Below the pieces are notes generated by a model. The model saw nothing but the letters and a program-made list of their open reading frames with translations, was not told where the DNA came from and did not search any database. Of a stretch of DNA of 64,000 bases, positions 18,106 through 20,883 are shown piece by piece. The DNA is from an uncultured Bacteroidota bacterium. GTDB lineage: Bacteria > Bacteroidota > Rhodothermia > Rhodothermales > UBA10348. The position numbers were made by a program, and so were the translations under genes. The first letter of the stretch is position 1, and each line of letters opens with the position of its first letter. Location of the stretch: NCBI GenBank assembly GCA_937876355.1, contig CALFHN010000145.1, positions 1-64,000 on the forward strand, read 5' to 3'.

Positions 18106-18825
18106 TTGATTCGTCAAGCTGGCTTAAAACGGGGCATGTCCTGTTTAGACGTTGGATGTGGAGGAGGATCAGTTACTCTGGACTTAGCCCGACTCGTCGG
18201 CCCTAATGGCCGAGTCGTCGGAATGGATTTCGATGCTGTCAAGCTCGATTTAGCAAAACAACACGCAGCGGATAAGCACGTCGACAACGTGTTTTTTGTC
18301 GAGGCCGACGTAACTGAACTCGAGGATATTAATACCTACGACTTCGTTTACGCCCGGTTTTTACTCTCCAACCTAAAAGAGCCTGATGTTATGCTCGCCA
18401 AAATGGCAGCGGCATTAAAGGCTAAGGGTGTGTTGGTGATTGAAGATGTCGACTATAGGGGCCACTTCTCGTATCCACAAAATGATGCTTTTGATAGATA
18501 TGTTGAACTATATCAACAGCTTGGAAGCAAACATGGAACCAATCCAAACATTGGATGCGAAATCCCTCTTATGATGGCGGATGCAGGCCTTATCGACGTG
18601 GAAATGTTGTTAGCCGACCTGGTTTTTGACAAAGGAGATGGCAAGACGACGAGCAAAATTACGCTTGACTCTATTGCCAAGGCCGTAATAAAAGATGGAT
18701 TGGCCACTAAGGCTGAAATGACCCGTCTAGGCGAGGAGCTCGATAAGTTTGTAAAAAGTAAACGCACCTTAATGAGCATGCCCCGCATCTTTCAGGTATG
18801 GGGTACAAAGGTAAAAGTTAAGTAG
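18106..18825 (+). CDS. Class I SAM-dependent methyltransferase (annotated start TTG probably not the ancestral start)
   Basis: 'GMSCLDVGCGGGSVTLDLARLVGPNGRVVGMDFD'; homologous-looking N-terminal sequence continues upstream in frame (NYVIEGGEAGYKRFRLISQVLKPTTLN). Confidence 0.8.
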   Translation: MIRQAGLKRGMSCLDVGCGGGSVTLDLARLVGPNGRVVGMDFDAVKLDLAKQHAADKHVDNVFFVEADVTELEDINTYDFVYARFLLSNLKEPDVMLAKMAAALKAKGVLVIEDVDYRGHFSYPQNDAFDRYVELYQQLGSKHGTNPNIGCEIPLMMADAGLIDVEMLLADLVFDKGDGKTTSKITLDSIAKAVIKDGLATKAEMTRLGEELDKFVKSKRTLMSMPRIFQVWGTKVKVK

Positions 18826-18839
18826 ATCTACTTCAGATC

Positions 18840-19524
18840 TCATTCAAACAAAGTCGCTTGTTTTGTACCAGTCTCCAGAGCGAGCAACATCCTCTTCCGG
18901 TGCAATCCTCCCCCATATCCCGTTAGCGACAACATCGGACCCAAGGGTGTCATTATTCGGTCCAAATACACAACGGTTGAGTCTTTGGTTGTGCTGGCCG
19001 CAAAGCCGGTAAATTTTTTGATCGCATCAGTGAATCCCGCCATTGATTCGTAACCAACGTCAAATGCCGTTCCCGTGACGCTATTCCCGTTTTTCATATT
19101 TCCCAAGGCTTTTCCAAGGCGCCTTGCTCGGCTATATGCATGAAAGGTCATTCCATAGTGTGACCTGAACCATCTTTCTAGTCCGCTCCGGTTCGATATT
19201 TAACACTCTTAAGTCTTGATCTCTCCATCGAAAGGCTGGGTCTTCGTCAACCTTACCAAGAAGCTCTTCCACCCAATTCGGAGCTGCATCAAGGTTCTCG
19301 AGGGGTTTACACCGCTTGCTCGGACGAAAACCGCCATCCAAAGCATCTTTTACCGTTTTAAAAAAGGTAACGTTTTCGGGTTTGGGTTTGGGTTTGCGGG
19401 CTGAACAGGTCGGACGGCAAAAAATACCAGTCGTATAAACCCCCGTAATAAATATACCTTCATACGAGGCATCGCTATTCGTAAACGCGCGAATCATTTC
19501 TGACTGCGAAGGAAGCTCAAGCAT
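18840..19524 (-). pseudogene. ada: Ada (methylated-DNA repair/transcriptional activator) remnant: frameshifted and internally deleted
   Basis: ORF 19132-19524 carries the Ada zinc domain (TGIFCRPTCSARKP...GFRPSKRCKP); ORF 18840-19151 in another frame carries AraC HTH, 'IMTPLGPML' (start of MGMT part) and the extreme C-terminus 'LTGYGGGLHRKRMLLALE', with no PCHR active site. Confidence 0.85.
19378..19400 (+). other. Canonical four-tract G-quadruplex motif
   Basis: GGGTTTGGGTTTGGGTTTGCGGG: four G3 tracts, loops 3/3/5 nt, inside the ada remnant zinc domain. Confidence 0.75.
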
Positions 19525-19626
19525 GTTTTACCAATCTTTCGAATGATTTCTATCAGAGAAAATCGTTCTTATCGGGCGATCTCGCCACCGCTAAATCAAC
19601 ATAGAACTCTAAATTATCCAACTGAA

Positions 19627-20883
19627 TCAATCAGGCAGCGCCGCCCCTGACTTGGAATGGAGGGTTTCTTTCATGACCATACTGGAAATGATTCCTGATG
19701 TGGCAGTTAGTACTGCAATGGTACCGATGGCCCATTCTAGCCCGAATACATCTGAAAGGAACCCTGCAAGCAGCGCTCCAATAACATAACCACCGTCTCG
19801 CCAAAGTCGGTACACGCCAATCGAGGTGGCGCGCCAATTCGGGTGAACCACGTCTCCGATGGCCGCAAGAAGCGTTGGATAAACAAATGCAGTGCCAATA
19901 CCCAACAGAATCATAGATGTGGCCAGTATCACGAACGAGTGCCCAGTCATGAGGAGGCCAATTCCAGCAGCTTGAATCAACATCCCTGAAACAATCAAAG
20001 GTTTTCGACCGATCCTGTCCGACCATACACCAGTTCCCAATTGTCCCAACCCCCAAATCGCAGGGTAAAGCGCTGCTAAAAGACCAATTTCCTTAAGTCC
20101 CAGCCCCAAACTAGCATAATAGATAGGAAAAAGGCCCCACACCATGCCGTCGTTGAGATTGTTCACGAGGCCGGCCTGACTCACCGAAAACAAATTCGGA
20201 TTCTCCCAACTGGTCATGCGAAATATTCGGACGAAACTAGGCCTGCCAACAGGATCGGTTTCTTCGAATTGTCGTGCTTCTAACTCAGCATGACCCCTCG
20301 TTTCCTTTACGAAAAAGACGGTTAGAAACAAGCCTAACAGAGCAAAAGCGACACCCAAATAGAAGGGATGTGGTCTTATTGAATACGCAGCGGCAATGTA
20401 ACCGGAGGCGAGGGCAGCAAGGGAAACGGCGACATATCCTGCCGACTCGTTGAGGCCCATCGCAAGGCCTCTTTGTTTGGGTCCTACGAGGTCAATTTTC
20501 ATCACTACGGTACTCGACCAAGCGAGCCCTTGATTTATTCCCAACAAAAGATTTGCTGCAACAATCCAAGACCAAGACGGAGCCCACATAATCAACAATG
20601 GAACTGGAATCCCAACCAACCATCCTGCAATCAACACGTTTTTTCGACCAAATCGATCGGCCCAGGTGCCCGCGAAGAGGTTGGCGATAGCCTTTGCCAA
20701 TCCGAAAGTGCCAATGAATGACAATATGGCCATTTTTGAGGCGATGCTGAATTCATCCTCAGCTAGAACCGGCAAAATGGCCCGCTCTAGACCCACCATC
20801 GCCCCCACAAAGGCATTCACCACAACCAGAAGCGAAAATTGCTGCCAGTTTTCTGATAGTCCGAGTTTTATTTCTGGAGGCAC
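19627..20883 (-). CDS. MFS transporter
   Basis: 418 aa, 12-TM pattern, 'GTWADRFGRKNVLIAGW', 'GVWSDRIGRKPLIVSG'. Confidence 0.88.
   Translation of the reverse strand: MPPEIKLGLSENWQQFSLLVVVNAFVGAMVGLERAILPVLAEDEFSIASKMAILSFIGTFGLAKAIANLFAGTWADRFGRKNVLIAGWLVGIPVPLLIMWAPSWSWIVAANLLLGINQGLAWSSTVVMKIDLVGPKQRGLAMGLNESAGYVAVSLAALASGYIAAAYSIRPHPFYLGVAFALLGLFLTVFFVKETRGHAELEARQFEETDPVGRPSFVRIFRMTSWENPNLFSVSQAGLVNNLNDGMVWGLFPIYYASLGLGLKEIGLLAALYPAIWGLGQLGTGVWSDRIGRKPLIVSGMLIQAAGIGLLMTGHSFVILATSMILLGIGTAFVYPTLLAAIGDVVHPNWRATSIGVYRLWRDGGYVIGALLAGFLSDVFGLEWAIGTIAVLTATSGIISSMVMKETLHSKSGAALPD

Follow-up and report, generated by a model that had tools for sequence, protein, structure and literature searches.

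Ada locus and its features

On the minus strand, positions 18840-19524 of the window (the whole 64,000-nucleotide stretch of DNA analyzed here) hold the remnant of a gene for a bifunctional Ada protein, in a genome of the Rhodothermales (Bacteroidota). Ada proteins of this kind have three parts: a zinc site that accepts the methyl groups of DNA phosphotriesters, a helix-turn-helix (HTH) of the AraC type that then activates transcription, and a C-terminal O6-methylguanine methyltransferase. Here, the sequence similar to Ada is spread over two ORFs. Across 115 codons, ORF1 has 80% amino acid identity to the Ada of the congener G002, while ORF2 (18840-19151, minus strand, 103 aa) holds the second part of the HTH, followed by the Ada/Ogt C-terminal tail. 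Taken together, the surviving codons are 78 to 80% identical, at the amino acid level, to G002 and G003. The features are as follows.

18106-18825, plus: SAM-dependent methyltransferase, flanking, syntenic and intact
18840-19524, minus: whole ada remnant, very probably a pseudogene, with Pfam matches to Ada_Zn_binding (E 2.7e-26) and HTH_18 (E 9.4e-10) split over the two ORFs
18840-18929, minus: Ada/Ogt C-terminal tail, SLTGYGGGLHRKRMLLALETGTKQATLFE, plus stop
18929-18930, minus: in-frame deletion junction (129 residues lie between the flanks in G001, G002, G003, and G005; junction DNA compared)
18930-19172, minus: HTH region and first methyltransferase-domain residues (WFRSHYG...TPLGPML) in the ORF2 frame, 86% amino acid identity to G003 over 81 codons
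19132-19524, minus: ORF1, 130 aa, with the Ada zinc-binding (methylphosphotriester sensor) domain and the HTH start, then out-of-frame MVQVTLWNDLSCI
19173-19178, minus: +1 frameshift, AGAAAGATGG in the window versus AGAAGATGG in the two nearest congeners, G002 and G003; the homologous reading passes from ORF1 to ORF2
19318-19320, minus: lost zinc ligand, AGC (Ser), changing PCKRC to PSKRC; Cys in 12 of 12 intact Adas compared
19378-19395, minus: extra 6-bp repeat unit, KPKPKP versus KPKP, not in any of the 12 intact Adas
19583-19600, minus: upstream 18-bp element GTTGATTTAGCGGTGGCG, with two substitutions in the window, conserved 5' of ada in four congeners and reading GTTGATTTTTCGGTGGCG in two of them
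19627-20883, minus: MFS transporter, flanking, syntenic and intact

The order DPP-IV peptidase, SAM methyltransferase, ada, MFS transporter is common to the window, G002, and G003, and the ada locus is therefore orthologous; similarity to intact ada genes and a shared gene neighborhood are thus both found here. The three neighboring genes are full length and intact, which argues that the assembly is not generally frameshifted in this region. Of the neighbors, the convergent SAM methyltransferase is 73 to 74% identical between the window and G002 or G003, compared to 89% between G002 and G003, and has changed faster on the window branch than the other neighbors.

The 18-bp element is conserved 5' of the ada coding region at L022, L023, L024, and L025, while the surrounding intergenic DNA is not. 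Judged from this conservation, it is a possible ada promoter, operator, or Ada-binding site. As a marker of a regulon it was discarded: among six genomes, one non-ada match was found at up to two mismatches (a site in G002), and reversed-pattern controls were about as frequent.

Lesions within the gene

A sequence-only reading of this DNA had proposed that the catalytic core of Ada, including the PCHR active site, is gone and that the frame is kept across a junction at about 18925-18932. Alignment bears this out. Exactly 387 bp, or 129 codons, are missing between GPM(L/M) and SLTGYGGG compared to G001, G002, G003, and G005; in all four of these congeners, which have the region, the stretch between the same flanks is exactly 129 codons and carries IPCHRIIG. 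With the junction mapped at 18929/18930, ORF2 reads ...YLDRIMTPLGPML up to the break and continues in frame with SLTGYGGGLHRKRMLLALETGTKQATLFE. Lost with the PCHR site is nearly the whole methyltransferase part, namely the greater share of its N-terminal domain and of DNA_binding_1. The remaining tail is indeed like that of Ada and Ogt, as had been suggested, with 66 to 71% identity to the congener tails in a gene that is orthologous by position. However, the extreme C terminus, described earlier as intact, is only nearly so; in the window, M and A replace the K and D that the four compared congeners have in common (RKxKLLDLE).

Microhomology at the junction, raised as a possibility, amounts to about 1 bp at most when the two break sites are compared within each living relative, the true ancestor being absent from the comparison; in G003, for instance, the DNA at the break points reads ...CTG/GCC and ...GGG/TCG. 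A repeat-mediated deletion was rejected on this basis. When the missing methyltransferase segment was searched for across the assembly, no displaced copy was found, the matches being the tail itself and the small C16 paralogue discussed below.

The deletion was the one lesion listed by the sequence-only reading, and that list was incomplete, since it left out the +1 frameshift, the loss of a zinc ligand, and the 6-bp duplication. The frameshift, at about 19173, is the reason that the gene now appears as two ORFs; it falls at the start of the HTH and separates the sensor from it. Programmed frameshifting at AGAAAGATGG was considered and set aside, as no recognized motif was seen and the product would lack the active site anyway. 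Aligned to 1adn, the lost ligand is the equivalent of E. coli Cys69; the four cysteines of CRPSC and PCKRC are the zinc binders (2023 review, PMC10779285). Among the papers searched, nothing on point emerged for a described ada pseudogene, for ada loss, or for Ada Cys69.

The window gene thus lacks the full set of four zinc cysteines, the PCHR methyltransferase domain, and a continuous frame through zinc domain, HTH, and methyltransferase, all features of a functional Ada. We are confident that it is a degraded, nonfunctional gene, a pseudogene, and its inactivation was probably recent compared to the divergence of the genus. In this reading, its ancestor was a normal three-part Ada; the window lineage then lost the core of the methyltransferase by an in-frame deletion and one zinc ligand by substitution, and a one-base insertion severed the HTH from the sensor. 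Neither remaining ORF would be expected to sense, regulate, or repair. From these lesions, ada has presumably lost its function, and the cell would be left without an inducible adaptive response of the Ada type.

Ada and alkyltransferase-like genes in relatives

An intact Ada in one open frame is present in three of five congeners (G001, G002, and G005; 364 to 401 aa from stop to stop, the orthologues themselves being about 351 to 354 aa) and matches all four Pfam domains: Ada_Zn_binding, HTH_18, Methyltransf_1N, and DNA_binding_1. The ada gene of G003 (L025:6018-6100) has independently been truncated at its 5' end: it lacks the start and about 41 codons, among them those for both CRPTC cysteines, and what is left of the frame is immediately preceded by a TGA. 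Its methyltransferase half is preserved. G010 (L143:9093-10471, minus strand) has a zinc-domain relic with FFRPAC and PCLRS, in which two zinc cysteines are lost and no HTH match is found, adjoining an intact stand-alone methyltransferase ORF. Only C-terminal parts of Ada are found in G004 and G009. Separately, the ada gene of G024 (L006:1504-2552) shows a frame change within the methyltransferase domain, at residues 281/282, which marks either a further pseudogene or an error in the assembly.

Across the family, 14 of 27 genomes have an Ada zinc-domain match, the window and the degenerate or truncated copies of G003 and G010 included, and 18 of 27 have a strong match to DNA_binding_1 of the Ada/Ogt type (E below 1e-28). 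Since G019 and G020, both at least 95% complete, are also without such a strong match, its absence from the window genome is not unique. Partial loss of Ada in these relatives usually affects the N-terminal sensor half; the window shows the reverse and less usual case, in which the methyltransferase is lost. The window gene fits a pattern of repeated ada erosion in the family and is, in that sense, a comparative curiosity.

The possibility of a second intact ogt or ada, also raised by the sequence-only reading, was not borne out. Searches of the window genome's assembly turned up neither a further Ada or Ada zinc domain nor an Ogt carrying both of the methyltransferase domains. About 7 to 8% of the genome is estimated to be missing, and a second enzyme could therefore lie there. 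The only other alkyltransferase-like gene is the C16 paralogue (L001:1432-1788, 118 aa by ORF call), which has DNA_binding_1 only, with LPCHRVVN. Its nearest solved structures by sequence are 3gva (S. pombe Atl1) and 2kif (Vibrio), and the PCHR cysteine is kept in it and in the seven relatives' copies that were read. A gene of the C16 class is present alongside an Ada/Ogt-type enzyme in all five congeners and in most family members. Neither the window genome nor any of the five congeners has AlkB, which was considered as a compensating change and is hence uninformative.

One can envision that this family loses the adaptive response piecemeal, with different halves of Ada lost in different species, that the window lineage passed through an AdaA-like intermediate, and that O6-methylguanine repair is left to the small PCHR paralogue; we consider this whole scenario rather improbable. 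The value of the locus lies mainly in the comparative set to which it belongs, one Rhodothermales family in which some genomes have an intact Ada, others an Ada truncated at one end or the other, and others none. Such a set could help in asking when a lineage can do without the adaptive response and whether the small PCHR paralogue then takes its place.

History of the loss and known systems

In the zinc and HTH parts, nonsynonymous divergence (pN) is 0.085 to 0.135 between the window and G002 or G003, about the same as the 0.085 to 0.120 between G002 and G003; synonymous sites are saturated in most pairs, so that dN/dS is not obtainable there. Two of 50 positions that are invariant in other intact Adas are changed in the window, one of them the zinc Cys, and this is within the range of functional members. 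Because the surviving codons are little decayed while synonymous sites are saturated, the loss of ada appears recent relative to the genus; had the gene been dead throughout that divergence, much heavier decay would be expected. A recent loss explains the low decay of the zinc and HTH sequence, although residual function would do so as well. The tail is changed at 8 of 27 positions at which G002 and G003 agree, compared to 12 of 129 elsewhere (Fisher p 0.009).

The faster change in the tail hints, only suggestively, that the deletion preceded the frameshift. In such a history, compatible with the gene now being a pseudogene, the in-frame deletion would first have left, for a time, a working AdaA-like sensor-regulator, with the frameshift and the Cys loss coming later. 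The deletion did keep the frame, and amino acid changes are in excess in the tail and not in the zinc and HTH parts. However, an in-frame outcome has a one-in-three chance, several of the tail changes are at sites that also vary among outgroups (in G001 and G005), leaving only K>M and D>A as clear losses, and G002 and G003 may be sisters. Today, moreover, the HTH is frameshifted and the zinc ligand gone. We regard this history as conceivable and somewhat unlikely.

That leaves two readings in which the gene is not a pseudogene. The 387-bp gap and the extra base might be artefacts: the genome is a draft that was probably assembled from a metagenome (2.9 Mb in 181 contigs, estimated to be 92.4% complete, with the window on contig C145), the congener genomes are MAGs, and the G024 gene has an internal frame change as well. 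Yet such errors would have to account, within a single gene, for a deletion, a missense change at an invariant Cys, the gain of a repeat unit, and the insertion of one base, and to spare its three neighbors. That the two break sites share no repeat above about 1 bp in relatives also speaks against them; we consider an assembly or consensus error very unlikely. Alternatively, the split could have given two functional short proteins, the sensor ORF1 and an ORF2 translated from the ATG at 19151, with 103 uninterrupted codons. The split, however, lies inside the HTH (ORF2 begins at position 22 of the HTH_18 model), the active site is missing from ORF2, and ORF1 is short of one zinc ligand, so that we give this reading hardly any credence. 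A pseudogene remains our preferred interpretation.

Compared to known systems, the window locus is orthologous to bifunctional Ada of the E. coli type (NCBIfam PRK15435), whose domain order, Ada_Zn_binding, HTH_18, Methyltransf_1N, and DNA_binding_1, is common to the intact congener Adas; it differs in that its frame is interrupted and in that the core of the methyltransferase and one zinc ligand are gone. In Bacillus subtilis, the sensor-regulator and the methyltransferase are separate proteins (PMC10779285). A zinc domain and HTH without methyltransferase, as in AdaA of that type, is what the deletion alone would leave in the window. Unlike AdaA, the window gene does not encode a complete zinc site and an unbroken HTH in a single frame, with its HTH frameshifted and a Cys lost, and it carries a leftover Ada tail; it has arisen by decay, not as a separate gene. 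The C16 paralogue is like the small alkyltransferase-like proteins (ATLs; Atl1, 3gva, and Vibrio 2kif) in size and in its nearest structures. In most ATLs, the active-site Cys is replaced by Trp (PMC10779285), whereas the C16 paralogue retains PCHR. Set beside these systems, the window ada is one more inactivated repair gene, ordinary and not a new kind of system.
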